NCBI RefSeq assembly: GCF_003148385.1
Contig: NZ_CP029463.1
Span: 1,984,001-2,048,000, forward strand
From: Flavobacterium sediminis
Lineage (GTDB): Bacteria; Bacteroidota; Bacteroidia; Flavobacteriales; Flavobacteriaceae
DNA length: 64,000 nucleotides
Reading direction: 5' to 3'
Part shown: piece after piece, positions 10,260-44,799 of the stretch
Layout: every line of letters begins with the position of its first letter
Numbering within the stretch: the first letter of the stretch is position 1
Made by a program: the position numbers and the translations under genes
Notes under the pieces: model-generated
What the model saw: only the letters and a program-made list of their open reading frames with translations
What the model was told of the DNA's origin: nothing
Databases searched by the model: none

Positions 10260-12883
10260 GTGGCAAAAAAGGAAGCGTCTAAAACGAAAGAAAAAGCAAA
10301 AAAAGAAACCCCGTTAATGCAGCAGTATAACACTATCAAGGCAAAATATCCTGATGCTTGTTTGTTGTTTAGAGTAGGAGATTTTTATGAGACTTTCGGT
10401 GAAGATGCGGTGCGTACAGCAAATATACTTGGAATTGTATTGACCAATCGAAATAACGGAGGAGAAAATTCAGCACTCGCAGGATTTCCGCACCATTCTC
10501 TGAACACGTATTTACCTAAGTTAGTTAAAGCAGGACTTCGCGTAGCGATCTGTGATCAGCTGGAAGATCCTAAAATGACCAAAACCATTGTAAAACGCGG
10601 AGTAACGGAACTGGTAACGCCGGGAGTGGCAATGAACGATGAGGTGCTGCACGCAAAATCCAATAATTTCTTAGCATCTGTTCATTTTGGGAAGAAACTT
10701 TTAGGAGTCACTTTTTTAGATGTGTCAACCGGAGAATTTTTAACAGCTCAGGGCAATGAAGAATATGTAGATAAATTGCTGCAAAACTTTAATCCGAGTG
10801 AGATTTTAGTGTCCAAACAATTCAAAAATAGATTTAAAGAAACCTTCGGGGAAGATTTTCATACTTTTTATTTGGAAGATTGGATATACAAAGAAGATTA
10901 TGCTTTAGAAAACCTGACCAAGCATTTTCAGACCAATTCGTTAAAAGGTTTCGGGATCGAAGAATTACCGGAGGGAATCATTGCCTCAGGAGCAGTGTTG
11001 TATTACCTTTCGGAAACGCAACATAATAAGATACAACATATTACTAATATTCAGCGTATCGCTGAAGATGCATATGTGTGGATGGATCGTTTTACCATTC
11101 GCAATCTGGAATTGTATCATTCAGCGAATGTAAATGCTGTAACGCTTTTGGATGTTATCGATAAGACTTTGTCCCCATGGGAGGAAGGCTGTTAAAACGA
11201 TGGCTGGCTTTGCCGTTGAAAGATGTTTCCCGAATTAAAAGCCGACATGAAGTGGTTGCTTATTTAAAAGAACATTCAGAAATTCTGACGCAAATTCAGT
11301 ATCAGATCCGGCAAATTTCCGATCTGGAGCGTTTGATCTCTAAAGTAGCAGCCGGAAAAGTGTCGCCGAGAGAAGTTATTTACCTTAAGGACTCACTGGA
11401 TGCTATTATTCCCATTAAAACATTGGCTTTACAAAGCGAGAATGAAGCATTAAAAGCGATCGGTGATAGTCTGCATGCCTGTGAACTGTTACGGGAAAAG
11501 ATAGGAACTACAGTTCATCCGGAAGCACCGGTTAATATTAATAAAGGAAATGCCATCGCAGTAGGAGTGAATCCGGAACTGGACGAATTGCGTAATATTT
11601 CTGCAAACGGGAAATCGTATTTAGAAGAACTGGAACAACGAGAAAGTGAGCGAACCGGTATCCCGTCTTTGAAGGTGGCTTTTAATAATGTTTTTGGATA
11701 TTATATTGAAGTTCGGAATGCTCATAAAGATAAAGTTCCTTCGGAATGGATCCGTAAACAGACATTAGTCAATGCAGAGCGTTATATTACGGAAGAACTA
11801 AAAGAATATGAAGCTAAGATTTTAGGCGCGGAAGAGAAGATTCAAACACTGGAAAGCCAGATATTTGAACAGTTGATCAACTGGATGGCCACGTATATAA
11901 AACCGGTTCAACATAATGCGAATCTGGTAGCCCAACTTGATTGTTTGCAGTCATTCACACAGTTGGCCATTGAAAATAAGTATATCCAACCGGAACTGGA
12001 CGATTCGTTTGATCTGGATATTAAAGAAGGAAGGCATCCGGTTATTGAAAAACAATTACCGATAGGCGTACCTTATATTTCTAACGATGTTTTCTTAAAT
12101 AGAGAAACGCAACAGCTTATCATGATCACCGGGCCTAATATGTCGGGTAAATCCGCTATTCTGAGACAAACGGCTTTGATTGTATTGTTAGCACAAATGG
12201 GAAGTTTTGTACCGGCCGAAAGCGTGCGAATGGGAGTTGTTGATAAGATCTTTACTCGGGTAGGAGCGAGTGATAATATTTCGATGGGAGAATCTACGTT
12301 TATGGTCGAAATGAATGAAACGGCTTCTATCTTGAACAATGTTTCTGAAAGAAGTTTGGTGTTGTTGGATGAGATCGGACGTGGAACTTCTACATATGAC
12401 GGAATTTCGATTGCCTGGGCAATTTCAGAGTATTTGCACGAACACCCTCATAAACCCAAAACATTGTTTGCGACCCATTACCACGAATTGAACGAAATGG
12501 AAGGACTCTTTGAACGTGTTCAAAACTTCAATGTTTCGGTAAAAGAGTTGAAAGATACCGTATTGTTTATTCGTAAGTTGGTTAAAGGCGGAAGTGCACA
12601 TAGTTTCGGTATTCATGTAGCCAAAATGGCCGGAATGCCGCAAACGGTAATCCAAAAAGCGCAAAAGATGTTGAAAAAGTTAGAGAAAGAACATTCCGGA
12701 GCCGAATTGAGCGGACTGAAAGATGCCGCAGAAGAAGAAATGCAATTGAGCTTTTTTAATTTAGACGATCCGCTTTTAGAAGAAATCCGGGAAGAGATTG
12801 TCAATATTGACATTAATACATTAACGCCTGTTGAGGCCTTGATGAAGCTGAATGAGATAAAGCGAATGTTGGCTAAAAAATAA
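10260..12883 (+). pseudogene. mutS: DNA mismatch repair protein MutS, frameshifted
   Basis: MutS split by a -1 frameshift at the CCCC run 11173-11176. The first part (from GTG 10260) has the N-terminal mismatch-binding domain, with the Phe-x-Glu motif in [15 protein letters not shown], and ends at residue about 312 after DVIDKTLSP. Reading resumes at 11177 with [16 protein letters not shown], which directly continues the same conserved helix. The second part carries the core, the clamp and the ATPase, with Walker [14 protein letters not shown] and Walker [15 protein letters not shown]. Adding one C restores a protein of about 874 aa, normal for MutS. The gene is otherwise intact, so this is either a consensus error or a recent real loss; it is recorded as broken because the given sequence does not encode one protein. 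Confidence 0.9.
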
Positions 12884-12948
12884 TTTAAAAATAAGCTATT
12901 CGTTATCAAAACATTAGAAAAAAGTTTATTTTTTTCTTTTAAAAGTAC

Positions 12949-12978
12949 TTGTAGAAATAAAAATATGTTCTATATTTG
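12949..12978 (+). promoter_or_regulatory. tRNA-Gly/tRNA-Leu promoter
   Basis: TTG at 12949-12951, a 19-base spacer and an exact TATATTTG at 12971-12978. This is the best consensus promoter in the window and drives the two-tRNA transcript. Confidence 0.75.
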
Positions 12979-13020
12979 CACTCGCAATACGGAACAAGTA
13001 TGGCGAAGTTCTTTAAAAAC

Positions 13021-13093
13021 GCGAAAATAGCTCAGTTGGTAGAGCGCAACCTTGCCAAGGTTGAGGTCGCGGGTTCGAACCCCGTTTTTCGCT
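13021..13093 (+). tRNA. tRNA-Gly (anticodon GCC)
   Basis: A 73-nt cloverleaf. The 7-bp acceptor (13021-13027 with 13086-13092) pairs fully. The D arm has GCTCAGTTGGTAGAGC, the anticodon loop is TTGCCAA with GCC, and the T arm has GGTTCGAACCC. CCA is not encoded. Confidence 0.97.
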
Positions 13094-13116
13094 CAACTAC
13101 CAAGATAAAGATATTA

Positions 13117-13202
13117 GCTCGAGTGGTGGAATTGGTAGACACGCTGGACTTAAAATCCAGTGGACAGTAATGTCCGTGCGGGTTCAAGTCCCGCCTTGAG
13201 TA
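13117..13202 (+). tRNA. tRNA-Leu (anticodon TAA)
   Basis: An 86-nt class II tRNA with a long variable arm. The anticodon loop CTTAAAA gives TAA, and the T arm has GGTTCAAGTCCC. The acceptor has two G-U pairs (1-72 and 5-68). CCA is not encoded. It follows the tRNA-Gly by 23 bases and shares its promoter. Confidence 0.96.
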
Positions 13203-13203
13203 C

Positions 13204-13247
13204 AAAAGCCTTGATTAATCTAAGATTGTCAAGGCTTTTTTGTTTTT
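13204..13247 (+). terminator. Terminator after the tRNA-Gly/tRNA-Leu unit
   Basis: An 11-bp stem (13204-13214 with 13229-13239) followed by a T-rich tract, 2 bases after tRNA-Leu. Confidence 0.85.
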
Positions 13248-13337
13248 TACTATTACATAATTTTTATCATTCTTGTTTAAAATTTTCTTATTTAAGTGTA
13301 AATTCACATATTAAATTTAAGGTATGGGGAATTTATT

Positions 13338-13496
13338 TTGAACAGAATTAAAAAAGTTGCTCCTTATGCTGTATTTTTTTGGGGAGCCAGTGTGTATTTT
13401 TACTTTACTAAAGATTATGATTTAGCTTTTTATTTTCTCGTAGCCGCCGGTATTGTTCTTGCTGTTTCATATATAATAATTAAGCTGAAAGCTTAA
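13338..13496 (+). CDS. Small membrane protein, 52 aa (TTG start)
   Basis: A short ORF that needs a TTG start at 13338, since no ATG is in frame. It encodes NRIKKVAPYAVFFWGASVYF and then YFTKDYDLAFYFLVAAG, ending in LKA. Two hydrophobic segments (about 8-22 and 30-47) are joined by a short charged turn, which suggests a two-helix membrane hairpin. It sits between the tRNA terminator and another small membrane protein. I do not recognise a family. The composition looks coding (charged turn, Trp/Tyr at membrane borders), but the start codon is uncertain. Confidence 0.45.
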   Translation: MNRIKKVAPYAVFFWGASVYFYFTKDYDLAFYFLVAAGIVLAVSYIIIKLKA

Positions 13497-13570
13497 GAGT
13501 AAGAAAAGTATTTAGTAAGGAATAGTATATTTAATCCGTGTGTTTTTTGTTGTAACTAAAAAATAAAATT

Positions 13571-13801
13571 ATGGAATTGATTATTTATTTAGGTATAATT
13601 AATCCGTCAGATATTGTGGTGGGTTCGATCGTTTATTTACTGATCACTATTACAGCTTTAGTATTAGTGCTAAAAAATGAAAAATCAATGGTTATTTTCT
13701 TATGGATACTGTTGCTCCTGTTCTTACCTTTTTTAGGAAGTGTTTTCTATATTCTGAAATACTTTATCAATAAAAAGGTGTTGCAAAATAAACCTTCTTA
13801 A
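13571..13801 (+). CDS. Small membrane protein, PLDc_N-like
   Basis: 76 aa with two membrane helices, at residues about 14-34 and 40-62. The second helix carries LWILLLLFLPFLGSVFYIL, which closely resembles the phospholipase-D N-terminal (PLDc_N) domain found in many small Bacteroidota membrane proteins. A basic tail (NKKVLQNK) should lie in the cytoplasm. There is no enzymatic domain, so the name describes only the fold. It is a single gene followed by a hairpin terminator. The role is unknown. Confidence 0.65.
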   Translation: MELIIYLGIINPSDIVVGSIVYLLITITALVLVLKNEKSMVIFLWILLLLFLPFLGSVFYILKYFINKKVLQNKPS

Positions 13802-13813
13802 AAAGATGTCAGA

Positions 13814-13840
13814 TCCAAATTTAATATTTGGCTTTTTTGT
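13814..13840 (+). terminator. Terminator after the PLDc_N-like gene
   Basis: A 6-bp stem (13816-13821 with 13827-13832) and a T tract. Weaker than the others in the window. Confidence 0.6.
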
Positions 13841-13914
13841 TTTATACTTTTTTGAGTACTTTTAAAGCAGAACTCAATTTTTAAACATAACGTTTTAGCA
13901 ATTACAAAACTTTT

Positions 13915-14280
13915 ATGGCAACTTTTATAATCACAAAAAGACCAAGTGGTTTCTACAAGTACGAATTAACATCCAGAAAAGGGAAAACAATTTTCACCAG
14001 TAATCCGTTTGAATTGCGTTTTGAGTGTGAAGAAGAAATAGAACACATTAAACAACATATTGATCGGATCTTTTTTATGAACTTTCGTTCCGGTAGTGGT
14101 AAATATTTTTTTAAATTGATTCTGGATGAGAAAGAAATTGCTATCAGTAGGAAGTATACTACTCAGCTTTTAATGGAAAAAGGAGTCAATGAAATAAAAA
14201 AGTATATGGAGACAGCAGAGATCTTAGATTTTTCTGCTTCGATAGATATATTCGGAGCTATAGAAGAAGAAAAGAAATGA
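13915..14280 (+). CDS. DUF1508 (YegP-like) domain protein
   Basis: 121 aa. The N-terminal half reads FIITKRPSGFYKYELTSRKG followed by KTIFTSN, the pattern of DUF1508 units, in which an aromatic residue, a strand and a turn precede a fragment like 'ILTS'. A second half-unit, SGKYFFKLILDEKEIAISRKYT, suggests the usual tandem pair in which the second repeat has diverged. There is no signal peptide, so it should be cytoplasmic. The family is widespread and its function unknown. A very strong terminator follows the stop, shared with the convergent lipoprotein gene. Confidence 0.65.
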   Translation: MATFIITKRPSGFYKYELTSRKGKTIFTSNPFELRFECEEEIEHIKQHIDRIFFMNFRSGSGKYFFKLILDEKEIAISRKYTTQLLMEKGVNEIKKYMETAEILDFSASIDIFGAIEEEKK

Positions 14281-14284
14281 AAAT

Positions 14285-14317
14285 AAAAAAGCCCTGCAAT
14301 TTTGCAGGGCTTTTTTT
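14285..14317. terminator. Bidirectional terminator
   Basis: A perfect long stem with A and T runs, between the convergent DUF1508 gene and the Ala-rich lipoprotein gene. Confidence 0.92.
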
Positions 14318-14334
14318 GTACTGTTTGCTTAATA

Positions 14335-14559
14335 TTAGTGAGCAGCTTCTTCAACAGCAGCAGCAGTGCTATCAACAGCAGCTTCAACAGCAGCAGCTGT
14401 AGTGTCAGCAGCAGCTTCAACAGCTTCTGTAGCCTCAGTAGCAGTAGCTTCAACAGCTTCTGTAGCCTCAGTAGCAGCAGCTTCAGTATTTTCAGCAGCT
14501 TCTTTACAAGATACGAACATCATAGCAACTAATGCTAAGCTTAAAACAACTTTTTTCAT
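14335..14559 (-). CDS. Ala-rich 11-residue-repeat lipoprotein, 74 aa
   Basis: Signal peptide (MKKVVLSLALVAMMFVS), lipidated Cys18, then exactly five 11-residue units and a final His: KEAAENTEAAA, TEATEAVEATA, TEATEAVEAAA, DTTAAAVEAAV, DSTAAAVEEAA. The second and third units correspond to a 33-bp tandem DNA repeat (14449-14481 and 14416-14448, one mismatch). Undecad repeats rich in Ala, Thr and Glu form amphipathic or right-handed coiled helices, as in group-3 LEA proteins. A promoter with TATCTTTG lies upstream. It should be anchored in the envelope. The function is unknown; a second lipoprotein with the same plan lies at 20544-20783. Confidence 0.8.
   Translation of the reverse strand: MKKVVLSLALVAMMFVSCKEAAENTEAAATEATEAVEATATEATEAVEAAADTTAAAVEAAVDSTAAAVEEAAH
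14416..14481. repeat. 33-bp tandem repeat, two copies
   Basis: Copies 14416-14448 and 14449-14481 differ at one base. They encode one 11-residue unit each inside the Ala-rich lipoprotein. Confidence 0.85.
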
Positions 14560-14596
14560 CTTACTAAATTATAAAAGGTTAATTATTAATTCATAG

Positions 14597-14624
14597 CAAA
14601 GATATAAATTTTTTGACTTGTCAA
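14597..14624 (-). promoter_or_regulatory. Promoter of the Ala-rich lipoprotein gene
   Basis: Minus strand: TTG (14622-14624), a 17-base spacer, and an exact TATCTTTG (14597-14604). Confidence 0.6.
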
Positions 14625-14715
14625 AATATTTTTAGATTTTTTTTTGTGAAAAAATATTTTTTTTTCGAACCCCTTGATTTATAAGGGGTATTATTAAAAA
14701 ATACCTATATATTTC

Positions 14716-16860
14716 TTATTTTTTTGTCGATTTTTTAGGGTGTACCATTTGCATTTCGTCTATTAAATTCTCAGCTCCTGCATATTTGTCGATGATAAAT
14801 AGTACATAACGAATGTCAACCATGATGTTTCGGCATATTTCAGGGTCATAGTGGATATCACTCATAGTGCCTTCCCAAACACGGTCAAAGTTCAAACCTA
14901 TCAAATTTCCGTTGGCATCAAGAGCAGGGCTTCCTGAATTCCCTCCGGTTGTGTGGTTGGTAGCAATAAAACAAACCGGTATTTTACCGTTTTCTGCATA
15001 CGGACCGTAGTTTTTAGTTTTATAGAGTTCGATCAGTTTAGCAGGAACATCAAATTCATAATCACCCGGAATGTATTTCTCCATAACGCCTTCTAAATGA
15101 GTGGAAGTTTCATAGTATACGGCATCACTGGGGTGATATCCTTTTACTTGTCCGTAGGTAATACGCAATGTGCTGTTTGCATCAGGGAAAAAGCGTCCAT
15201 CGGGAAAAAGCTCCAGTTGAGCTTTCATATAGTCTCTTTGTAATCCTCCGATTTCTAAATCAATTGCATCATATTTAGGTGAAATGTTTTCATAGAAATT
15301 ATCGGCTAATTTTTTAACCAATTGATACCCTTTGTCTTTGTGTAATGCCTTGATGACTTTTGATGCTTCTCCGCTTAAAAGAGATTGCAGGTTTTTGTAA
15401 GAAGTCAATTTAGATTTACTATAGATTTCATCGGTAGTTTTACCATAATCCATAGTTTTAAATTCGGTCGGGATCAATGGCGATTTCTGACCGTACAGAG
15501 CAATTAACTTCTCAAAGACTTGTTTGTCTACATTTACATTGAAATCTTTGTAGAAATTTTCAAGAGATTTAACGGTATTTTCTTTTCTGTCGTTGAAAGC
15601 TTGTTCTCCCTTGGTTTTGTAAATTTGTTCCAATTGATACAAGCGGAAGCCAACATTCAATAGTTCGGTATTGCGGTAAACGACTTCTATAAAATAATCT
15701 CTGGCCAGTGCATAATCGTTGATTGCTTTATAGTTTTTCTCAAAATCGCTTAAAAGATTACCATAAGTGTCTTGTTTTCCTTGGGCAACAACTCTTTTTT
15801 GAAACTCGGTTTCAAAGTCTTTCTTCAATTGAACGGCATCTGATTTCTTTAGCCCTTGACTTTCTCCGATCCATTTTTTCCAATAATTTGCAATTCGGGC
15901 ATATTTTGAAGCGTATTGAATTTTTATTGCTTTGTCTTTACGCATAAAACCATCCTGAACTTTTAAAGCAGCGTCGCGGATCTCTATTTTAGCCGGATTT
16001 AATGTATTTATGATTTGTTCTACGGCAAATGAAGGTAAATATTCCTGAGTTCTACCCGGAAAACCGAAAACCATAGTGAAGTCTCCTTCACTGATCCCGT
16101 CCAATGAAATGGGCAGGAAATGTTTCGGAGTATACGGAACATTGTCTTTTGAATATTCGGCTGGTTTATTGTTTTTGTCGGCATAAATTCTGAAGATGGA
16201 AAAATCCCCTGTGTGGCGGGGCCAAACCCAATTATCGGTATCAGAACCGAATTTACCGATCGAACTTGGCGGTGCTCCCACTAAACGGATGTCTTTGAAT
16301 GTTTCGGTAACGAATAATAAATATTGGTTTCCTTCATAAAAGGTTTTGATCTTGTTTTCCTGCCAGGATTCTTTCGGAAAGCTCTTCTGGATACGGTTAC
16401 TGTTTTCCTGAATCTTTTTTTGCTTCTCAGCTTCTGAAGTTAACTGACTAACGCCTTCCAGAACGGTATTGGTTACGTCATGTATGCTTACAATCAGGGT
16501 AGCTACCATTTTAGGGTTCGGCAACTCCTCATTTTGAGATTTTGCCCAAAAACCATCTTGTAAATAATCATGTTCTATGCTTGAATGGTTTTGGATCGCA
16601 TCATAACCGCAATGGTGATTGGTTAGTAATAAACCTTTAGGAGAAATGATTTCAGCGGTACAACCACCGTCAAAATGCACAATTGCATCTTTCAAGCTAG
16701 ATGTATTAGTGTCATAAATATCTTCTGCTGTCATTTTCATTCCCAACTGTTGCATTTCACTTTCGTTCATGCCTTCTAGCATGCTGGGAACCCACATACC
16801 TCCCTGCTGGGCTAAAATAGGGAAGCTAAGAAAAAGAATAAATAATTTTAAAAGTTTCAT
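14716..16860 (-). CDS. S46 family dipeptidyl-peptidase, DPP11-like
   Basis: 714 aa from the ATG at 16860; an upstream in-frame ATG would precede the signal peptide. Signal peptide about 1-18 (cut after LAQ). The chymotrypsin-like triad elements are visible: His83 in TNHHCGYDA, Asp in the region SDTDNWVWPRHTGDFS, and Ser in GGNSGSPALD near the C-terminus. S46 enzymes release dipeptides from peptides in the periplasm. Eighteen residues after the catalytic Ser is Arg (GLNFDRVWEG). From what I recall, the equivalent position is Arg in DPP11 (prefers Asp/Glu at P1) and Gly in DPP7, so acidic specificity is inferred. It follows waaA by 33 bases on the same strand. Confidence 0.88.
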   Translation of the reverse strand: MKLLKLFILFLSFPILAQQGGMWVPSMLEGMNESEMQQLGMKMTAEDIYDTNTSSLKDAIVHFDGGCTAEIISPKGLLLTNHHCGYDAIQNHSSIEHDYLQDGFWAKSQNEELPNPKMVATLIVSIHDVTNTVLEGVSQLTSEAEKQKKIQENSNRIQKSFPKESWQENKIKTFYEGNQYLLFVTETFKDIRLVGAPPSSIGKFGSDTDNWVWPRHTGDFSIFRIYADKNNKPAEYSKDNVPYTPKHFLPISLDGISEGDFTMVFGFPGRTQEYLPSFAVEQIINTLNPAKIEIRDAALKVQDGFMRKDKAIKIQYASKYARIANYWKKWIGESQGLKKSDAVQLKKDFETEFQKRVVAQGKQDTYGNLLSDFEKNYKAINDYALARDYFIEVVYRNTELLNVGFRLYQLEQIYKTKGEQAFNDRKENTVKSLENFYKDFNVNVDKQVFEKLIALYGQKSPLIPTEFKTMDYGKTTDEIYSKSKLTSYKNLQSLLSGEASKVIKALHKDKGYQLVKKLADNFYENISPKYDAIDLEIGGLQRDYMKAQLELFPDGRFFPDANSTLRITYGQVKGYHPSDAVYYETSTHLEGVMEKYIPGDYEFDVPAKLIELYKTKNYGPYAENGKIPVCFIATNHTTGGNSGSPALDANGNLIGLNFDRVWEGTMSDIHYDPEICRNIMVDIRYVLFIIDKYAGAENLIDEMQMVHPKKSTKK

Positions 16861-16893
16861 TTTGTATTGGTTTTTGGTTTGCAATTTACGTTT

Positions 16894-18155
16894 TTAAGAA
16901 TTAGCCGTGCACTGCTTAGTTGTTAAAATATAATTCAAAATGGTTTGGGTTGCTCCTTTATTCATTTGAACAAAGGTCTCACAAATATGTCCTTTTTCCT
17001 TCCTTTCGTCTATGTTTTGGACTAATAGATTAAAACTGTGAGTTAGTTCGCTTTGGTTTTTTACAGAAATGCAACCTTCAGATTGTACCAGAGCTGTAGC
17101 TTCTGCAAAATGAGAATAATTCGGTCCGATAACGATCGGAACACCAAATGTTGCCGGTTCTAAAATGTTGTGAACCCCTGGATTTCCGAAACCACCGCCT
17201 ACATACGCAATATCCGCATAGCTATATATTTTAGTCAAAATTCCTATAGTATCTATGATAAAAACCGTGTGATCAGAAAGTTGCTTGCCTTCTTTTTCAG
17301 AGAATAAAACTGTTTTTTTAGTGATCAACGATCTTAAAGTAGCAATTTGTTCTTTTTTAATGTTGTGCGGAGCAATAATAAATTTTATAGAATCGGGGCT
17401 TTGATTGATATAATTAGCTACAAGCTCTTCGTCCTTTGGCCAGGAACTGCCGATCACTATGGTTGTGCGATTTTCATCAAGTATAAAATCTTCGATAAAA
17501 TCCAGAGAATTATCGCGCTCTAAAATGGCTGTAACACGGTCAAAGCGAGTATCTCCTGAAACAGTTACATTCGTAAAACCTATAGATCGGATCAATTGCT
17601 TAGAGGAATCGTTCTGTACAAAAAAATGTTCAAAAGTTTGCAGTGCCTTTTTATAAAATCCTCCGTACCATTTAAAAAATGCCTGCTCTTTCCTGAAAAT
17701 ACCGGAAATAAGATAAGTGGGGATTTGTCTTTTTTTGAGTTCGTTCAAATAATTAGGCCAGAATTCATATTTGATAAAAAAGACCATTTCGGGGTGTACA
17801 AGGTCTAAAAACGATACGGCATTGGGTTGAGTGTCTAATGGTAGATAAACTGTAGCGTCGGCAATCGTATTGTTTTTCCGAACTTCATAACCGGAGGAGA
17901 AAAGAATGTTAAAACGATCTTATGTTCTGGAAATTCTTTTTTGATTTTTTCCATGACCGGAAGCCCTTGTTCGTATTCGCCTAAAGAAGCAGCATGAAAC
18001 CAAATAACCCTATCCTGAGCTTGTATTTTATTTTTTAAGATCGAAAAGACATCTTTTCGTCCGTTGACAAAAAGCTTCATTTTAGGATTGAAAAAAGCGG
18101 TCAATTTCACGATCTGCGAAATCAAAAGAGTTGCGATATTGTACAGAAAAAACAT
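16894..18155 (-). pseudogene. waaA: 3-deoxy-D-manno-octulosonic acid (Kdo) transferase, frameshifted
   Basis: A WaaA/KdtA gene broken by a -1 frameshift near 17895. The N-terminal part (from 18155) has the membrane anchor and IWFHAASLGEYEQGLPVME, the family signature for the glycosyltransferase-30 domain, and reads correctly to IVLTFFSP. The other frame then continues SGYEVRKNNTIADATVYLPL and, 17 codons later, the downstream part with FIKYEFWPNYLNEL, IGSSWPKDEELV and AYVGGGFGNPGVHNILEPAT. One added base restores about 420 aa, the usual length. The enzyme attaches Kdo to lipid A at the inner membrane and is normally essential for LPS, so an artefact is more likely than a true null. Confidence 0.88.
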
Positions 18156-18243
18156 TCACTTGAATTTGAGTGGCTAAAATAAACAAAAAATTGCTAATAA
18201 GGTTCTTTACAGAGCAATGGAAGGCGGTAAAATGTACAAGTAA

Positions 18244-18260
18244 AAATGGTAGAACCATTT
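18244..18260. promoter_or_regulatory. Short perfect inverted repeat upstream of the DegT gene
   Basis: AAATGGT, 3 bases, ACCATTT. It sits where the -33 element should be, 23 bases before a TACTTTTG box, and has no T tract, so an operator is more likely than a terminator. Role not proven. Confidence 0.35.
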
Positions 18261-18282
18261 AGTGCTAATCATAATTAATTCT

Positions 18283-18290
18283 TACTTTTG
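18283..18290 (+). promoter_or_regulatory. Putative -7 box for the DegT aminotransferase gene
   Basis: Exact TACTTTTG, 24 bases before the chosen ATG at 18315. It argues against the more upstream in-frame TTG start (18288), which would overlap the box. Confidence 0.45.
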
Positions 18291-18314
18291 CTATACAAAA
18301 TATTCGTTTTACAA

Positions 18315-25435: not shown

Positions 25436-27496
25436 ATGAGAATAAAATTCTACTTTATTTTTTTTATGACTATGTTAGTCAAGGCTCAGGTTGGAATAAA
25501 TACAACTGTACCTAAAGCAGCATTAGATATTGTAGCTGTAGATGACGGAATTTTAATTCCGAGAGTAGCATTGGTAAATACGACTACAGCAACAGTAATA
25601 ACTCCCACCGAATCAGAATTAGTGTATAACACGACAACAACGGCTGATGTAACTCCCGGATATTATTATTGGGACGGTACAAAATGGATCCGATTCACAA
25701 CGAGTACAGATGGTGTGAGTTGGCTTGTTAACGGGAATACAGGGATTAATGATGCTAATTTTTTGGGAACGATTAATAACACAGCATTGAATTTTAAAGT
25801 GAATGCACAGAAAGCAGGACGGATCGGAATTGCCACTGACGGAAGTACTTTTTTAGGGTATCAGGCAGGTGCTAATGATGATCTGTCAGACAATAAAAAT
25901 ACTTTTTTAGGATATCAGTCCGGTTTTAACAACACAACAGGGATAAGAAATACCGGGGCAGGGTATCAGGCTTTATATAATAATACGACCGGAGTTTATA
26001 ACACGGCTAAAGGATTTCAGTCATTATATAGTAACACCACAGGATCATGGAATACAGCTTTAGGATATGGAGCTTTGTATTTTAATACCACCGGAGTATA
26101 TAATACCGCTGGAGGATACCAGTCGTTATATAGTAATAGTACAGGTTCTAATAATACAGCAAATGGTAATGGAGCCTTATTCAGTAATACAACTGGTGGA
26201 AGTAATACAGCGGAAGGGAGTTATGCTTTGTATAGTAACAGTACTGGTTCAAATAATACAGCAGCTGGGTATCAGGCTTTGAGAAGCAATTCAACAGGCT
26301 CAGAGAATACGGCCGCCGGGACACAAGCATTGAGGGGAAACACTACCGGATCATGGAATACAGCTTCAGGATATGGAGCATTATATAGTAATGATACAGG
26401 CTCTTGGAATATGGCTAGCGGAGTACAATCATTATTCAGCAATACTACAGGAGCTAATAATACGGCAAGTGGTTATTGGGCACTTTATAGTAATACGACC
26501 GGAGGAAATAATACAGCGACAGGAAGTCAGACATTGAGAAATAATACAACAGGGAATTGGAATACAGCCAATGGTAGTCAAGCTTTATATAATAATAATA
26601 TAGGATCCGGCAATACAGCGTTAGGCGATTCCGCTATGCGATGGAATACTTCTGGCGGAAGTAATACAGCAGTAGGGAATCAGGCATTATATGCCAATAC
26701 TATTGGAGGAGGTAATACAGCTAACGGTGTACAGGCTCTTAATAGCAATACTACAGGAGGGAATAATACAGGTGTCGGATATTGGGCATTATATGCTAAT
26801 ACTACAGGAGAATATAATACAGCCGCCGGAACACAATCGCTTAGAAGTAATGTATCAGGCTCCTTTAATGTTGCCGGAGGATATGGAGCATTATATAGAA
26901 ATGTAGATGGAATGTGGAACACAGCTCAAGGAACACAATCATTGTATAATAATGTTTCGGGAAGATATAATACAGCAATAGGCTATCAGGCATTGTCAAG
27001 TGTTACATCAGGCGGTAATAATATTGGTGTGGGCTACGATGCTCAAGTTCCTTCTGCAACAGCAGATAATCAGGTGCAAATTGGGAATACGAATATAACT
27101 TATGCAGGGATACAGGTAGGGTGGACAATTACTTCCGATAAAAGATGGAAAGAAAATATTCAACTTTCTGATTTGGGGTTAACTTTCATTAAGGATCTTA
27201 AGCCGGTCAAGTATACACGTAAGAATGATTTAAGTCATAAAACGGAGTATGGGTTTATAGCACAAGAGGTGGAAAAGAGTTTAATCAATTGTAATGTGCA
27301 AAATACAGGGATGATCACTATCGGAGACGATGGTATGTATGGAGTGCGTTACAATGACTTATTATCACCTTTGGTAAAAGCGGTTCAGGAGCAACAAGCA
27401 ATTATTGAAAAACAGGAGAGTGAGATAGACAATCTGAAACAAATAGTAGAGACTTTGTTAAAAGAAGTAAGCTCTTTGAAGAAAGAAAAATTGTGA
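25436..27496 (+). CDS. S74-type surface protein with 21 17-residue repeats
   Basis: 686 aa. Signal peptide about 1-17 (cut before QVGINTT, a start common in flavobacterial adhesin-like proteins). Residues 166-522 are 21 gap-free repeats of 17 residues with consensus NTTGxxNTAxGxxALxS, as would form a left-handed beta-helix, similar in spirit to YadA heads. Next comes the C-terminal intramolecular chaperone (endosialidase type, S74) with SDKRWKENI, then PVKYTRKNDLSHKTEYGF and a coiled-coil tail (EQQAIIEKQESEIDNLKQIV) that would trimerise it. It looks like an extracellular fibre or adhesin. No T9SS sorting domain is seen, so the export route is unknown. Confidence 0.83.
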   Translation: MRIKFYFIFFMTMLVKAQVGINTTVPKAALDIVAVDDGILIPRVALVNTTTATVITPTESELVYNTTTTADVTPGYYYWDGTKWIRFTTSTDGVSWLVNGNTGINDANFLGTINNTALNFKVNAQKAGRIGIATDGSTFLGYQAGANDDLSDNKNTFLGYQSGFNNTTGIRNTGAGYQALYNNTTGVYNTAKGFQSLYSNTTGSWNTALGYGALYFNTTGVYNTAGGYQSLYSNSTGSNNTANGNGALFSNTTGGSNTAEGSYALYSNSTGSNNTAAGYQALRSNSTGSENTAAGTQALRGNTTGSWNTASGYGALYSNDTGSWNMASGVQSLFSNTTGANNTASGYWALYSNTTGGNNTATGSQTLRNNTTGNWNTANGSQALYNNNIGSGNTALGDSAMRWNTSGGSNTAVGNQALYANTIGGGNTANGVQALNSNTTGGNNTGVGYWALYANTTGEYNTAAGTQSLRSNVSGSFNVAGGYGALYRNVDGMWNTAQGTQSLYNNVSGRYNTAIGYQALSSVTSGGNNIGVGYDAQVPSATADNQVQIGNTNITYAGIQVGWTITSDKRWKENIQLSDLGLTFIKDLKPVKYTRKNDLSHKTEYGFIAQEVEKSLINCNVQNTGMITIGDDGMYGVRYNDLLSPLVKAVQEQQAIIEKQESEIDNLKQIVETLLKEVSSLKKEKL
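25931..27001 (+). repeat. 51-bp tandem coding repeat, 21 copies
   Basis: 21 in-frame copies of a 51-bp unit (17 codons), degenerate at DNA level but without insertions, forming residues 166-522 of the S74-type protein. Confidence 0.9.
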
Positions 27497-27618: not shown

Positions 27619-29629
27619 ATGAAGAAGAAATACTTTTTGTTGCTTTTTTCGGTGAGTTTATTTTTTTCAAATGCTCAGGAGTCAATGGAAAAAAAGCCTA
27701 AATTTTTCGGAAAAGAAATAGCAGCCGATAAAATAAGTTCATCCGGATATATAAAATGTATAACAGATGAATATGAACAATATTTACAAGAGAGAAATTC
27801 CGGTAGATTAACTAACGATAAGTTTGAAGAATGGTTGGCTCCGCTCATTGAAAGATATAAAAATAGCAGACAGTTACTTAGCCCTACCCAAGTTATTTAT
27901 ATTCCGGTAGTAGTTCATGTTATTCATAACGGAGATCCTTACGGAACGGAAGAGAATATTACAGACGAGCAGGTAGAATCTCAAATTACAGTAATGAATC
28001 AGGATTTTAGAAAGATGACAGGTACTCCGGGCTATAATTCAAATCCTGTAGGTGCAGATATAATGGTAGAATTTGTCTTAGCAAAAGTAGATCCGAACGG
28101 AAATCCTACAAACGGAATTGATCGCGTTAATATGTGTCAGGAGTCATGGTCTACATCAGCTATCGACGATTACGTTAAGCCAAATACTATTTGGGATCCG
28201 AATCTGTATATGAATATGTGGTCTGTTAATTTTTCAAGTGGTAGCCTTTTAGGATATGCAACTTTTCCTTCGGGTCAGGACTTGACGGTTTAACTAGTGG
28301 ATATGGAACAGATACAACTGATGGAGTAGTGTCTGGGTATAGATTTTTCGGCAGCTCTGATCTTACTTCGGGTAATTTCTATCCGCCTTATGATAAAGGA
28401 AGAACAATGACTCATGAGGTTGGTCATTTTTTGGGATTACGCCATATTTGGGGCGACGGTAATTGTTCGGTAGATGATTTCTGTTTGGATACTCCGAATG
28501 CCGCCGCCGCTAATTACGGTTGCAATACGACCGATTCCTGTCCGGATGGACAAGGAAACGATATGATTGAAAACTATATGGATTATACAGATGATTTATG
28601 CATGAACATTTTTACAAATGATCAGAAATTAAGGATCTTGGCAGTCATGGATAATTCGCCCAGAAGAGTTTCTTTAAAAACATCCCCTACCAGTGCTCCG
28701 ATACCTTTATTCGCTAATGATGCTGAGGTGAAAATTGAAAACTATTGTACCGGAGGGCTTGTAACCCAACACATAAAATACTCCTTTACAATAGAGGAAC
28801 TTCTGATCTTACTGCAGCAACCTTAACATATAATGTTGACGGTGGAGGAAATTATAATTACAGTTGGTCAGGTATTATAGAGCCTGATAAATACGAGTTA
28901 ATAACGATCTATACTACAGAAACGACTGGGGTATTAAATATTTCTCTTGCTTCAGTAAACGGAGGAGTTGATGAGCGTTCTTCAAATAATAACAGTAGTA
29001 AGGTATTTGATTTTGGGCAATTACCGACTGATTATCCGTTTGAAAATTTTGTGTTTAATCTGGTAGGAGATCGTTGGGGTAGTGAAACAACATGGGATTT
29101 AAAGGATTCAAACGGAGTAGTGCTTTATTCCGGAGGACCTTATACAAACAAGCTACTTAACGGTACCCAGAACCTTGTCACAAATATGGTGTGGAACTTA
29201 CCGTATGACGGGTGTTATAATTTTACAATTAATGATTCTTACGGAGATGGTATTTGTTGTACAAGTGGTGCAGGTAATTGGAGTATAACAACTGATTCAG
29301 GTGCCATTACAGTAGGAAGTGGTGGTAGTTTCAGTTTTGCAGAATACCTGTCGTTTAGTACAACTGTTTTAAGCAATGATGCCTTTGAAACAAATGATTT
29401 TACACTTTACCCGAATCCGGCTGAAAATATTCTCAATGTTTCAATACCATTAGAAATAACGGATGATCTAACGTATGAGATTTATAATAATTTAGGACAA
29501 ATTTTGAAAGTTGGCAAAGTGACTCAAAAAGAGTTCATACTTACTATCGGAGATTGGCATGAAGGAGTATATTTTATTAAATTAAGATCAGAAAACTCAA
29601 GTTCGACTTTAAGATTTGTCAAAAACTAA
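27619..29629 (+). pseudogene. M43 (cytophagalysin-like) zinc metalloprotease with T9SS sorting domain, two frameshifts
   Basis: Signal peptide about 1-19. The protease domain has HEVGHFLGLRHIWGD, the HExxHxxGxxH zinc site, and the Met-turn ENYMDYTDD. These are features of the pappalysin/cytophagalysin family (M43). The C-terminus ends with a type A T9SS sorting domain (TLYPNPAENILNVSIP, EGVYFIKLRSENSSSTLRFV), so the mature enzyme should be secreted through T9SS and attached or released. The reading frame breaks at 28272-28274 (GGG) and at 28765-28767 (CCC); adding one base at each joins three ORFs into about 670 aa. Both lesions fall at short G/C runs, like others here. Confidence 0.85.
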
Positions 29630-34035: not shown

Positions 34036-35660
34036 TTATCCTAAGAATGGATATCTGTAATCTTCCGGAACAATAAGTGTTTCTTTAATTGTTCTTGGAG
34101 AAACCCAACGCAATAGGTTCAGGATTGAACCGGCTTTGTCATTAGTTCCTGATGCTCTTGCGCCGCCAAACGGTTGGTTTCCTACAACAGCACCTGTCGG
34201 TTTGTCGTTAATGTAGAAATTTCCGGCAGCATTTTGTAAAGCAAGGGTTGCTTCTTCAATAGCATAACGATCCTGACTGAAAATAGCACCTGTTAAAGCA
34301 TATTCAGAAGTGGTATCAACTAATTCTAAAGTTTTAGCCCATTTTTCGTCTTCATATACATAAATCGTAACTACAGGTCCGAAAAGTTCCGTTTCCATAG
34401 TTTTGTATTTCGGATTAGTTGTTAAGATAACCGTTGGTTCCACAAACCATCCTTTTGATTTGTCATAACCGCCACCTAAAATAATTTCGGCATCGCTATC
34501 TTGTTTCGCTTGTTCGATATATGAAACTAATTTGTTGAATGATCCTTCGTGAATAACCGCTGTGAAGAAGTTCGATAAATCTTCAGGCGACCCCATTTTA
34601 ATGGATTGAACGTCTGTCGTTAATTGTTCTTTTACAGCCGGCCATAAACTTTGTGGGATGTATACTCTTGAAGCAGCACTACATTTTTGTCCTTGGAACT
34701 CAAAAGCACCGCGAACAATTCCTGTTACTACTTGTTTTACATTAGCAGACGGGTGAGCTAAGATAAAATCTTTACCACCGGTTTCACCTACAATTCTCGG
34801 ATATGTTTTATAGTTATGAATGTTGGCGCCAACTTTAGCCCATAAGTCTTTAAATACATGCGTTGATCCTGTAAAGTGAATACCTGCAAAATCCGGACTT
34901 GCTAATAGCGTGTCGGTTACCATTACAGGGTCTCCGTAAACTACATTGATCACACCGTCAGGAACACCGGCTTCTTTGAAAATGTCTACAATAATTTTAG
35001 CTGAGAAAATTTGGCTGTCACTAGGTTTCCAAACGACAACATTCCCATCATGGCAGCACTTGAAGGCAAGTTAGCAGCAATGGCAGTAAAGTTAAACGGC
35101 GTAATCGCATAAACAAAACCTTCTAACGGACGGTGTTCTACACGATTCCAAACAGAAGAATCTGAAATAGGTTGTTCTTTATAGATCTGCGTCATGTATT
35201 CCACGTTGAAACGCAAGAAATCGGTTAATTCACAAGCAGCATCTATTTCTGCCTGATGAACCGTTTTAGATTGCGCAATCATGGTTGCGGCATTGATTTT
35301 AGCACGGTAAGGTCCGGCAACCAATTCAGCAGCTTTTAGGAAAATAGCAGCTCTTGATTCCCAAGAAGTATTTGCCCATTTTTTACGTGCTTCTAAAGCT
35401 GTTGCAATAGCTTTTTCTACGTGCTCTTGTTCTGCTAAGTGATACGTGCCTACAACGTGTTGGTGATCGTGTGGTGCTGTTAAGTTTCTTGTGTTTCCGG
35501 TTCTTATTTCTTCTTTACCGATATATAACGGAACATCAACAGTTTCATTCCACATTTTTTTATAAGCAGCTAAAACCTGCTCTCTTTCGGGAGTTCCGGG
35601 TGCATACGATTTTACAGGTTCGTTTACAGCCTTAGGAACATTGAAAAATCCTTTTGACAT
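34036..35660 (-). pseudogene. pruA: 1-pyrroline-5-carboxylate dehydrogenase, frameshifted
   Basis: An ALDH-superfamily P5C dehydrogenase split by a -1 frameshift at 35042-35046 (forward TTCCC). The upstream part reads to SAAMMG, and the restored frame continues NVVVWKPSDSQIFSAKIIVD before joining the downstream part at GVINVVYGDPVM. The downstream part holds the catalytic Glu region GETGGKDFILAHPSA and Cys in GAFEFQGQKCSAASRVYIP. Repaired length is about 541 aa, typical of Bacteroidota P5CDH. The enzyme oxidises P5C/glutamate semialdehyde to glutamate in proline breakdown; no proline dehydrogenase gene is present here. Confidence 0.9.
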
Positions 35661-37199: not shown

Positions 37200-37202
37200 A
37201 TA

Positions 37203-38459: not shown

Positions 38460-38580
38460 ATTTTAAGCTGTTTTGTTGTAAAAATAATCAAACTATTTTT
38501 ACTATTACAAATTAAATACCGTAATATTCTTAAGTCTTAATTTAGAATGAGTATAAATAAATAAAAAGCCTTGTCTAATT

Positions 38581-38613
38581 TTTGGTAGCGAAATGGGTAA
38601 TTAACTAAATTTG
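38581..38613 (+). promoter_or_regulatory. nqr operon promoter
   Basis: TTTG at 38581-38584, a 21-base spacer, and an exact TAAATTTG at 38606-38613, 43 bases before the nqrA ATG. Confidence 0.65.
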
Positions 38614-38656
38614 CCTGTTTTATAAAAATATAGTACTAACCATATCTTCAATAAAC

Positions 38657-40003: not shown

Positions 40004-40031
40004 TTTCTAAAGGGATTTAAAAACACAAAAC

Positions 40032-41228
40032 ATGAGTTTAAAACAAAATTTACATAATTTAAAGCTCAAGTATCAAGGCACAAAAATGGAACAAACGTTC
40101 AATGCTTTGCATACTTTTCTTTATATGCCTAACAATACTACGCATTCAGGTGCGCATGTTAGGGATGCTGCCGATTTGAAGCGTGTGATGAACACGGTTA
40201 TTATGGCAATGGTTCCGGCATTGATCTTCGGTATGTTTAACGCCGGTTACCAATACAACGGACAAATCAACGGGTTTGAGAATCTGGCTTTTTTAAGTTG
40301 GGATAACTTAGTTGTAGGTTTAGAAAAAATACTTCCGTTACTAATCGTCTCTTACGGAGTCGGTTTAGGGATCGAATTTATTTTCGCTACCGTTAAAAAA
40401 CACGAAGTAGAGGAAGGATACTTAGTAACAGGTATGTTAGTACCTTTAATAGTTCCTGTAGATTTACCTTTATGGATGTTAGCGGTTGCAGTTGCATTCG
40501 GAGTAATCATTGGTAAAGAATTATTCGGAGGAACCGGTATGAATGTATTGAATCCGGCTTTGACCATTCGTGCTTTCTTATTCTTTAACTGGGCAGCGTT
40601 CATGTCCGGAGATAAGATTTGGGTTCACGGAGTTGTGGATGGCATCAAAAAAGCTAATGGTGTAGATGCAATTTCCGGAGAAACAATATTAGGTACTTTG
40701 GCAGCAAACAAACACGTAGGCTATTCAGCTTATGAGATGTTCATGGGATTCATTCCGGGTTCTGTGGGAGAAACGTCTACTTTCCTGATCTTAGTGGGGG
40801 CAGCTTGGTTGTTGTTCACAGGGATCGGAAGTGCCCGTATCATGATTTCTGCTGTAATCGGAGCATTAGTGATGGGATTGATATTTAATGGAGTGGTTGA
40901 TAGTGGTGTTATTACTGAAAGCAGTAAATTCTACAGTTTAATGCACTTCCCGTTCTGGCAACATTTATTGATCGGAGGTATAGCTTTCGGTATTGTATTC
41001 ATGGCAACCGATCCGGTAACGGCTTCACAGACAAATATCGGAAAAATTATTTACGGTTTCCTAATCGGGTTATTCAGTATTTTGATTCGTGTATTCAATC
41101 CGGCTTATCCGGAAGGTGTAATGATGGCGATCTTATTGATGAACGTATTTGCACCGACAATTGATCACTATGTGGTTCAGGCTAATGTGAAGAGAAGAAT
41201 GAAACGTTTAAAACTTAAAACTGCTTAA
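40032..41228 (+). CDS. nqrB: Na+-translocating NADH-quinone reductase subunit B
   Basis: 398 aa, a polytopic membrane subunit (about 10 helices). LNPALTIRAFLFFNWAAFMS and FMATDPVTASQTNIGKIIYG are family hallmarks. FMN is bound covalently to a Thr; here the motif is DAISGETIL with Thr218, a small departure from the usual S-G-A-T. It also carries riboflavin and forms part of the Na+ path. Its flavinylation should be done by ApbE, encoded at the end of the same gene cluster. Confidence 0.95.
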   Translation: MSLKQNLHNLKLKYQGTKMEQTFNALHTFLYMPNNTTHSGAHVRDAADLKRVMNTVIMAMVPALIFGMFNAGYQYNGQINGFENLAFLSWDNLVVGLEKILPLLIVSYGVGLGIEFIFATVKKHEVEEGYLVTGMLVPLIVPVDLPLWMLAVAVAFGVIIGKELFGGTGMNVLNPALTIRAFLFFNWAAFMSGDKIWVHGVVDGIKKANGVDAISGETILGTLAANKHVGYSAYEMFMGFIPGSVGETSTFLILVGAAWLLFTGIGSARIMISAVIGALVMGLIFNGVVDSGVITESSKFYSLMHFPFWQHLLIGGIAFGIVFMATDPVTASQTNIGKIIYGFLIGLFSILIRVFNPAYPEGVMMAILLMNVFAPTIDHYVVQANVKRRMKRLKLKTA

Positions 41229-41231
41229 TTT

Positions 41232-41957
41232 ATGTCAACAAAACGTACAGATTCAAACGTATATACTATTGTATTCGCTGTAATACTGGTAGTAGTGGTA
41301 GGTTCGTTGTTGGCATTCTTTGCAAACGCAACGAAGGAAATGCGTGATAACAATGATAAGGTTAAAACGCAGATCGATATATTGAGTTCAATGGGAGTGG
41401 AAGCAACCAGAACTAATGCAACAGAAATGTTCGGTCAGTACATCAAAAAGCAATATGTGGTTGAAGGAACTACGGCGACTGAAAACGCTGAAGCTTATTT
41501 GATAGATGTGAAAAAAGAACAAGATGCGGCTAAAGCCGGAAAAGTACAAAGATTACCTTTGTTTATAGGGGAGAAAGACGGAAAAACAATCTATATCTTT
41601 CCGGTAAGAGGTAATGGTTTGTGGGATGCTATCTGGGGCTATGTAGCCTTGAACGATGATCTAAAAAGTATCTACGGAGTATTCTTTGATCACAAAGGAG
41701 AAACACCGGGATTAGGAGCAAACATCACTGAAAGTTTCTTCAAAGACGATTTTAAAGGAGAAATGATCTATGATAAAGACGGGAATTACAAATCTGTAAC
41801 TACTTCTAAGTCAAATGCCGATCCGAATAACGTAGATAAAACAGATAATGAGGTTGATGCTATTTCGGGAGCTACTATTACAAGTAATGGTGTAAGTGCT
41901 ATGTTGAAAAAAGGCATCAGTTTATACTTGCCTTATTTTGAAACTCTAAAAAAATAA
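41232..41957 (+). CDS. nqrC: Na+-translocating NADH-quinone reductase subunit C
   Basis: 241 aa with one N-terminal membrane helix (about 11-30) and a periplasmic FMN-binding domain. The flavinylation motif DAISGATITS is clear, with Thr215 as the covalent FMN site. GLWDAIWGYVALNDDLKSIY and HKGETPGLGA complete the FMN-binding fold. It passes electrons between NqrB and NqrD/E. It begins 3 bases after nqrB. Confidence 0.95.
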   Translation: MSTKRTDSNVYTIVFAVILVVVVGSLLAFFANATKEMRDNNDKVKTQIDILSSMGVEATRTNATEMFGQYIKKQYVVEGTTATENAEAYLIDVKKEQDAAKAGKVQRLPLFIGEKDGKTIYIFPVRGNGLWDAIWGYVALNDDLKSIYGVFFDHKGETPGLGANITESFFKDDFKGEMIYDKDGNYKSVTTSKSNADPNNVDKTDNEVDAISGATITSNGVSAMLKKGISLYLPYFETLKK

Positions 41958-41962
41958 AAACT

Positions 41963-42667
41963 ATGGCAGACAATAAAACAAAAGAAAAAGAGCCATTGTT
42001 CTCCAAAAAGAATCTTGGACTTATTAAAGATCCGTTAGCAGACAACAACCCTATTACAGTTCAGGTATTGGGAATTTGTTCTGCACTGGCAATTACAGCA
42101 GAATTAAAAGCTTCTGTAATTATGGCTTTATCGGTAATTTTCGTAACAGCTATGGGTAACGTAGTAATCTCATTAATGCGTAATATTATACCTAATTCCA
42201 TTCGTATCATTACACAATTAGTAGTTGCTGCAACATTAGTAATCTTAGTAGATTTAACTTTGAAAGCTTTTGTGCCGGACTTGGCTAAAAAATTATCCGT
42301 ATTCGTTGGGTTAATTATTACGAACTGTATCATCATGGGGCGTTTCGAAGCATTTGCTTTGGGTAACACACCTTGGAAATCGTTCTTAGATGGAGTTGGT
42401 AACGGATTAGGATATGGAGTTATTTTAGTAATCGTTGGTTTTTTCCGTGAATTATTTGGTTCTGGTGATTTATTCGGTATTGGGAAAACTTATTTAGGAC
42501 ATCCGTTATTAGGAAATCCAATTAAAGGTGAACTTTCTGGATTATATGCATTAGGATATGAAAACAATGGTTTCATGTTGTTGGCTCCAATGGCGTTAAT
42601 TACTCTTGGTTTAATCATCGGTTTCCAACGCTCTAGAAATAAAAGTTTAATCGAAGAAACACACTAA
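41963..42667 (+). CDS. nqrD: Na+-translocating NADH-quinone reductase subunit D
   Basis: 234 aa, about six membrane helices. Cys35 in GICSALAIT sits in the first helix; with the matching Cys of NqrE it holds the Fe-S centre in the middle of the membrane. NCIIMGRFEAFALGNTP is the family signature in the second half. The N-terminus is extended by a charged lead (KTKEKEPLFSKKN). Sequence order and length agree with NqrD/RnfE-type proteins, and the operon context settles which. Confidence 0.94.
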   Translation: MADNKTKEKEPLFSKKNLGLIKDPLADNNPITVQVLGICSALAITAELKASVIMALSVIFVTAMGNVVISLMRNIIPNSIRIITQLVVAATLVILVDLTLKAFVPDLAKKLSVFVGLIITNCIIMGRFEAFALGNTPWKSFLDGVGNGLGYGVILVIVGFFRELFGSGDLFGIGKTYLGHPLLGNPIKGELSGLYALGYENNGFMLLAPMALITLGLIIGFQRSRNKSLIEETH

Positions 42668-42670
42668 GAA

Positions 42671-43420
42671 ATGGAATTATTACAATTATTTTTAAAGTCA
42701 ATTTTTATTGATAATATGGTATTCGCTACATTCTTAGGAATGTGTTCTTACCTTGCGGTTTCTAAAAAAGTATCTACAGCTGTAGGTCTTGGTGCTGCGG
42801 TAATCTTCGTAATGTTTGTAACGGTACCGGTTAACTACTTGTTAGATCAATATTTACTTCGCCCGGGAGCTTTGGCTTGGTTAGGAGAAGAATATGCAGA
42901 ATATGATTTAAGTTTTCTTACCTTCATTTTATTCATTGCTACAATTGCTACTATGGTACAGTTGGTGGAAATGATCGTTGAGAAATTTGCTCCGGCATTA
43001 TATAACTCATTAGGGATCTTTTTACCCTTGATCGCGGTAAACTGTGCGATCTTAGGAGGTTCGTTGTTCATGCAACAAAAAGAATTTGCTAATATTACTG
43101 AAGCAACAGTTTATGGAGTAGGTTCAGGTATAGGATGGTTCTTGGCTATTTTAGCAATTGGTGCTATTCGTGAAAAGATCAGATATTCAAACGTTCCGCC
43201 GGCTTTCAGAGGTTTAGGTATTACCTTTATTTTAACCGGTTTAATGGCTATCGGATTCATGTCATTCGGTGGTATGTTAACAGGTGGTGATGAAGCTCCT
43301 AAAAAAGAAGTGGTAGAAAACATCGCTCCGGCACAAGAAGAAATTCCTGTAGAAGTAGTGCCTGATTCTACTGTTGTGGAAACTGTAAAAGATTCATTAA
43401 CCGAAATAGCACAAAATTAA
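42671..43420 (+). CDS. nqrE: Na+-translocating NADH-quinone reductase subunit E
   Basis: 249 aa. Residues 1-205 form the usual six-helix NqrE with Cys25 in [11 protein letters not shown] and [12 protein letters not shown]. The protein then carries an extra tail of about 40 residues, rich in Glu, Val and Pro ([20 protein letters not shown]), which most NqrE proteins (about 200 aa) lack. The tail is acidic and looks unstructured. It is not a frameshift, because the reading frame runs smoothly to nqrF. Confidence 0.94.
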
Positions 43421-43422
43421 TT

Positions 43423-44799
43423 ATGATAGCATTAGAAGTAAGCACTACGGGATTAATAACAACAACCGTAATCGCATTTTTAGTTTTATTATTGGTTTTG
43501 GTTGCTATTATTTTGTTTGCTAAAGCAAAATTAGTTCCTTCAGGACCGGTAAAAATTACAATCAATAAAGAAAATGAAATTGAAGTAGGTTCAGGATCAT
43601 CACTATTGTCTACTTTAGGTGGTGCTAAGATTTTTCTACCATCAGCATGTGGTGGAGGTGGAACTTGTATCCAATGTAAATGTAAAGTTCTATCCGGAGG
43701 AGGAGAAGCATTGCCTACAGAAACGCCGCATTTTAACAGAAGAGAATTAGCAGAAGGTTGGCGTTTAGGATGTCAGGTTAAAGTAAAAGGAGACATGGTT
43801 ATCGAGGTACCGGAAGAAATTTTCGGGATCAAAAAATTCGAAGCTAAAGTGTACTCTAACTATAACGTAGCATCATTTATTAAAGAATTTGTGGTAGAAT
43901 TACCCGAAGATATGCACTATGAGCCGGGAGGTTATATTCAGATTGAAATCCCACCATGTGAGATCAATTATAGAGATATAGACATCTCTGCCCATCCTGT
44001 TGAGCATCCGGGAGCACCGGATAAATTCCAATTAGAATGGGATAAATTCAACTTGTGGCCTTTAGTCATGAAAAATACGGAAACGGTAGAAAGAGCTTAT
44101 TCCATGGCTTCTTACCCTGCTGAAGGACGTAAGATTATGTTGAATGTTCGTGTTGCTACTCCGCCATGGGACAGAGCTGCCAATGGTTGGATGAAAGTAA
44201 ATCCGGGTATTGCATCGTCTTATATTTTCTCAAGAAAACAGGGAGATCCTGTAACCGTATCAGGACCTTATGGTGAATTCTTCATCAACGAGTCTGATGC
44301 TGAGATGGTTTACATCGGTGGAGGTGCAGGTATGGCGCCAATGCGTTCGCATTTGTACCACTTGTTTCGTACCGTAAAAACAGGAAGAAAAGTTTCGTAT
44401 TGGTACGGTGGACGTTCTAAACGTGAGTTGTTCTATGTAGATCACTTTAGAGCTTTAGAAAAAGACTTCCCTAATTTCCGTTTCTATATCGCTCTTTCTG
44501 AGCCGTTAGAAGAAGATAATTGGAAAGTAAAAGAGAATGTTGATGCACCGGGTGACGGTTTCGTAGGATTCATTCACAATGTAGTAATTGACAATCATTT
44601 GAAAAACCATGAAGCACCGGAAGATATCGAATTCTATTTCTGTGGACCACCAATGATGAATAATGCAGTTGTAAAAATGTGTGACGATTGGGAGTACCGA
44701 AAGAGAATGTTCGTTTTGACGACTTCGGAGGCTAATCCGATTAAGAATATAAAAACTAAAAAACCGATTCTTTTTGAATCGGTTTTTTTATTACCCTAA
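43423..44799 (+). CDS. nqrF: Na+-translocating NADH-quinone reductase subunit F, shifted C-terminus
   Basis: The 2Fe-2S domain has [12 protein letters not shown] and a distal Cys (RLGCQV). The FAD domain has [15 protein letters not shown], and the NADH domain has [12 protein letters not shown]. It receives electrons from NADH and anchors through one N-terminal helix. The last residues are wrong: at GGG 44690-44692 one G is missing. In the other frame the sequence reads [15 protein letters not shown] and stops at 44733-44735, the standard NqrF end. As written, the ORF runs on to 44799 and translates the operon terminator. Intended gene about 43423-44735. Confidence 0.92.
44759..44789 (+). terminator. 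Terminator after nqrF
   Basis: A 10-bp perfect stem (44761-44770 with 44776-44785) and a T run, 24 bases past the true nqrF stop. Confidence 0.88.

Follow-up and report, generated by a model that had tools for sequence, protein, structure and literature searches.

Frame Breaks at G/C Runs in the Flavobacterium sediminis Assembly, Read as Residual Consensus Error

The window analysed here, a 64,000-nucleotide stretch of the Flavobacterium sediminis assembly, contains five genes (mutS, waaA, an M43 protease gene with two breaks, pruA, and nqrF) whose reading frames are interrupted by six single-base shortfalls. These breaks, together with similar ones elsewhere in the genome, are almost certainly residual error in a long-read consensus that undercounts G/C homopolymers, and we infer that the living cell lacks them. 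The feature is an ordinary assembly artefact rather than biology. This reading follows from four properties of the breaks, namely that essential genes and rRNA are hit, that the sites are nearly always G/C runs, that only losses occur in the set of breaks kept, and that the frequency of loss rises with run length. Under such a process, the consensus would drop one base from runs of mostly four or five G or C, the loss would become more frequent the longer the G/C run, A/T runs would be largely spared, and errors would strike protein genes and rRNA without regard to function.

Frame breaks in the window

In a three-frame translation, one protein continues in another frame at each of six places. 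The five genes affected are listed below by window position.

10203..12883, plus strand: mutS (DNA mismatch repair), in two frames, with the change at CCCC 11173-11176
16894..18155, minus strand: waaA-like Kdo transferase gene, in two frames, with the change near 17895 at CCGGAGG, which holds no run of three
27619..29629, plus strand: M43 metalloprotease, secreted, with a Por secretion tail, in three frames, with changes at GGG 28272-28274 and GGAGGG 28752-28757
34036..35660, minus strand: pruA (L-glutamate gamma-semialdehyde dehydrogenase), in two frames, with the change at CCC 35044-35046
43423..44735, plus strand: nqrF (Na+-translocating NADH:quinone reductase subunit F), with the frame change at GGG 44690-44692, near the C-terminus

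Pfam and NCBIfam models name the pieces as MutS, Kdo transferase, peptidase M43 with Por secretion tail, L-glutamate gamma-semialdehyde dehydrogenase, and NqrF; the first piece of the M43 protease has no family match of its own in either collection. Matches to MutS are led, among the best 80, by Flavobacterium species and metagenome-assembled Flavobacteriaceae genomes, and the mutS gene was matched in 298 of 299 same-genus genomes drawn. The nearest relative among the genomes compared, designated G272, shares 87% DNA identity in mutS. Six segments, 84-90% identical, run collinearly in G272 and the window and together align 63,033 of the 64,000 bases.

Base-level alignment to G272 finds six uncompensated one-base shortfalls, at 11178, 17896, 28272, 28757, 35044, and 44690, and no uncompensated +1 over the 63,033 aligned window bases. 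The six -1 breaks in five genes reported by the first-pass annotation are therefore present in the deposited sequence. They belong to a set of 22 gaps in G272 open reading frames (ORFs) with lengths that are not multiples of three; as we read the rows, each of the remaining 16 has its frame restored close by, sits where a gene begins or ends, or belongs to a chance ORF that overlies a tRNA. In the M43 protease, the second break, first placed at CCC 28765-28767, has moved about 10 bases upstream to GGAGGG 28752-28757, since the residues of the relative match the new frame of the window from there on. Where a shortfall affects the third position of a codon, as it does at several sites, the protein cannot fix which base is missing.

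The same alignment shows about 700 bases at 13210-13914, beside tRNA-Gly/Leu, without a counterpart in G272, and about 13.3 kb extra in G272 directly after nqrF (window 44789-44808); each may be a gain or a loss. Internal repeats of about 65% identity occupy 25925-27013, inside the ORF at 25436-27496.

Intact versions of these genes occur in relatives. Among 125 loci fetched, some of them overlapping within one genome, both pieces lie in one ORF in 96 of 97 loci holding both for mutS, in 24 of 24 for waaA, and in 2 of 2 for pruA. The comparison for nqrF and the M43 protease was with G272, where nqrF is unbroken at 437 aa. In the single mutS exception, from Algibacter (Algibacter miyuki CECT 8300, L031:650-3270, contig name tig..._pilon), the gene again changes frame, perhaps through the same kind of assembly error.

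Breaks in a larger sample of the genome

The comparison was extended to four collinear blocks between this genome and G272, with 364 ORF pieces and 380,649 coding bases scanned. The scan gave 35 rows, 26 from the ORFs of G272 and 9 from this genome's own ORFs. Of the 26, 18 were kept as clean breaks, and all 18 are -1 in this genome. The eight rows dropped (genome positions 269768, 346792, 356627, 383535, 388019, 2341704, 2466963, and 2496098) either are diverged stretches with several gaps or are close to the end of an ORF; that at 383535 is a +1 no more than 41 aligned bases from an ORF start. Seven of the nine own-ORF rows duplicate kept sites, and the other two, 297356 and 2053154, are multi-base changes near ORF starts. 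The mirror test, which used this genome's own ORFs in the same alignments, found no clean break in G272, with one unclear +1 dropped.

Clean breaks number 18 per 380,649 bases of the coding DNA compared, or about one per 21 kb. The first proposal, about one per 10 kb, describes the window (6 breaks per 63,033 aligned bases). A hot spot in the window was considered and set aside: its six breaks compare with about 2.2 expected (P about 0.02), a value that assumes 58,000 coding bases in the window and is to be read with the window having been chosen for its breaks. Extrapolation from the larger sample, with 90% coding assumed, suggests roughly 150 false frame breaks genome-wide.

Seventeen of the 18 breaks occur at G/C runs with an observed length of 3 (n = 10) or 4 (n = 7). 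The exception is waaA, whose neighbourhood has no run of three or more, so that the first claim of a run at every window break extends less surely to it. Seventeen also lie within two bases of a G/C run of at least 3, compared with 6.6% of aligned positions (binomial P about 1e-19). The runs at the breaks seem short because this DNA has few long G/C runs: the 407,181 aligned bases hold 435 G/C runs of observed length 4, 43 of length 5, 3 of length 6, and none longer. If each shortened run is assumed to be one base longer than observed, about 10 of 445 runs are shortened at length 4 and 7 of 50 at length 5, or roughly 2% and 14%, which are approximate shares in that the 7 shortened length-4 runs are also counted among the 435. 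None of the 18 breaks falls inside or immediately next to an A/T run of at least 4 (the nearest is 2 bases away), while the same DNA holds 4,005 A/T runs of at least 5 (Fisher P about 4e-17). For these comparisons, G/C and A/T runs were counted in all aligned DNA and breaks in ORFs, and both the zero for shortened A/T runs and the assignment of breaks to G/C runs were entered by hand from the break listing.

A methylation or sequence motif behind the sites was considered and rejected. The string CCGGAG is present at two of the six window sites, and inspection of the 18 sites found no shared flank beyond the G/C run itself.

A second kind of lesion was sought in the same alignments. In 318 complete ORFs, 24 in-frame stops were aligned, 16 of them within 10% of an ORF end. 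Six of the 24 were inspected, comprising five of the eight mid-gene stops plus one near an end; 2467114, 2496424, and 2496484 were left out. One of the six, at 2344682, is a clear lesion of another kind, a true-looking mid-gene stop by substitution rather than a length error. This site lies outside the window. The other inspected stops are frame-compensated or diverged stretches, and nonsense decay was rejected for them.

Some breaks, those of the M43 protease for example, might be genuine pseudogene mutations among the artefacts. That gene has two breaks and is plausibly dispensable, and the stop at 2344682 shows one true-looking nonsense codon elsewhere, but both M43 sites share sign and GGG context with the other breaks, and two breaks per gene are also found in rpoC and gyrB. 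We regard this mixed origin as very unlikely, though less so than the other alternatives to consensus error.

Breaks in rpoC and gyrB

The genes rpoC (RNA polymerase) and gyrB (DNA gyrase), both identified with NCBIfam and Pfam models, are ones that a cell cannot lose, and together they account for four of the 18 breaks: rpoC is cut at 2363274 and 2363553, and gyrB at 268308 and 268445. A broken rpoC or gyrB is lethal to a cell. A whole-genome search with the RpoC of G272 found three pieces of one copy only and no intact second rpoC. The corresponding search with GyrB found no intact second gyrB, returning the broken copy in pieces together with a paralogue of 38% identity that is presumably ParE.

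Ribosomal RNA operons as an internal test

Three rRNA operons were found in the genome. Over about 5 kb from the 16S start, they present 3,647 runs in identical order with 0 substitutions, and 11 G/C runs differ by one base among the three while no A/T run does. Counted by the longest length at each site, the shortened G/C run copies number 1/255, 5/84, 7/27, 2/3, and 2/3 at lengths 3 to 7, so that the rate rises with run length in rRNA as an error process would have it. The totals for lengths 3-7 are 17 of 372 for G/C and 0 of 429 for A/T. Just upstream of 16S, an A run reads 10, 9, and 8 across the three operons, and may reflect error or true flank variation.

Five of the variable sites lie in 23S, and the gap seen here is absent at all five from five aligned copies of four other genomes; in G246, the first of these sites has one differing base. 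The partial 23S matches of G134 and G254 were left out of the controls. Within control genomes, the six 23S copies of G246 and the two of G134 show no variation. Between the two copies of G254 there are 2 differing sites; at one, a G7 run varies in length by one base, at the same place as one of the five variable sites here. The short-form copy stood outside the five-copy alignment, and the G254 assembly may carry one such error too. The three copies of G213 (L214, L219, and L222) differ at 52 sites in patches, mostly by substitution, and this is true, unusual within-genome heterogeneity. All three 23S copies of the present genome (L208, L209, and L210) are without two bases present in the five control copies, after ...GAGCCCTTT, which is either a species trait or an error common to all copies.

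Weighing the readings

Residual homopolymer error in a long-read consensus, the explanation first offered for the window, gains support from the rpoC and gyrB breaks and from the G/C-run length differences among rRNA operons that otherwise agree in base order, and the operon comparison is the decisive one. The breaks are single-base and of one sign at homopolymers (18 of 18 are -1, and 17 of 18 are at G/C runs of at least 3), and they are blind to selection, striking rpoC and gyrB twice each and 11 rRNA operon sites. The points that sit less well with an artefact are waaA, the 1 of 18 that lies off runs of at least 3, the stop at 2344682, the 10/9/8 A run upstream of 16S, the short form in G254, and the listed completeness of the assembly (99.99%, for a single contig of 3.44 Mb with a GC content of about 36%), which could suggest few broken genes. 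Completeness estimates tolerate fragmented genes.

A true mutator, in which mutS is really broken and unrepaired slippage deletes bases at G/C runs throughout the genome, would place mutS among the broken genes and would make the per-run rate climb with run length, both as found. The expectation that a mutator favours longer runs had been proposed as grounds for setting it aside, but it has no discriminating power, since per run these breaks favour longer runs too. What counts against a mutator lies elsewhere. It should spare essential genes, whereas rpoC and gyrB carry two breaks each and the searches found no intact copy of either. According to the excerpted text of a study of mismatch-repair-deficient Pseudomonas fluorescens (PMC4316635), small indels made up 6.77% of mutations and showed an insertion bias. 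A mutator should, on that account, give more substitutions than indels, and insertions as well, and neither is seen here: among the rRNA operons, 17 run copies are shortened and there are 0 substitutions, a contrast subject to the caveat of gene conversion, and the coding DNA compared has 18 clean losses and not one clean gain, with the one unclear +1 row dropped. A/T runs are untouched in genes and rRNA in these counts. We consider a mutator extremely unlikely.

There is equally scant reason to suppose that the breaks are real but bridged, with ribosomal frameshifting or transcriptional slippage at G/C runs restoring the proteins. The common sign of all 18 breaks and the similar short runs at 17 of them could be served by one decoding rule, and the downstream parts remain gene-like relative to G272. 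A bridged break should be conserved, but relatives read straight through mutS, waaA, and pruA in all but one of the loci counted above, and G272 shows no clean break. Unbroken G/C runs of the same length far outnumber the breaks (435 of length 4 and 43 of length 5), and untranslated rRNA bears the same shortenings. The chance is likewise minute that the cell carries the breaks, those in rpoC, gyrB, and rRNA included, and reads through them by slipping quite generally at G/C runs about four or five bases long.

Implications for users of the assembly

Because the assembly is one contig and listed as 99.99% complete, users may believe its gene losses. Consensus error on the extrapolated scale would pass for pseudogenes, including a false loss of mutS from which a mutator might wrongly be deduced. 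Setting the rRNA operons of one genome side by side, with equal base order and unequal run lengths as the sign, is a quick test for such error that needs neither reads nor a reference. The value of the present observations lies in this caution and in a ready-made test for such assemblies.

Comparison with published sequencing-error signatures

The pattern has a close counterpart in the PacBio consensus of Streptomyces leeuwenhoekii. The excerpted text of that report (PMC4487206) states that the majority of differences consisted of a C or G left out of a run of at least 3, causing frame shifts, and that 2,934 bases were inserted from Illumina data over 7.9 Mb, about one per 2.7 kb. Losses of C or G at runs of at least 3 shift frames here too. 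The two cases differ in that S. leeuwenhoekii is a high-GC genome corrected at about one base per 2.7 kb, whereas the present one has about 36% GC and, in coding DNA, a clean break about every 21 kb; PacBio is here a presumed platform. Nanopore assemblies offer a second parallel. As far as the portions consulted of PMC9262707 and PMC12007338 describe them, homopolymer indels in the consensus fragment genes, as they do here. The portion of PMC12007338 adds that deletions peak after four to five identical bases and that A/T stretches have about twice the errors of G/C stretches, unlike the present genome, in which A/T runs are spared. Because A/T runs are hit more in the nanopore data of PMC12007338, and because the G/C omissions match those described in PMC4487206, we lean toward PacBio continuous long reads as the somewhat better fit, with nanopore as the alternative.
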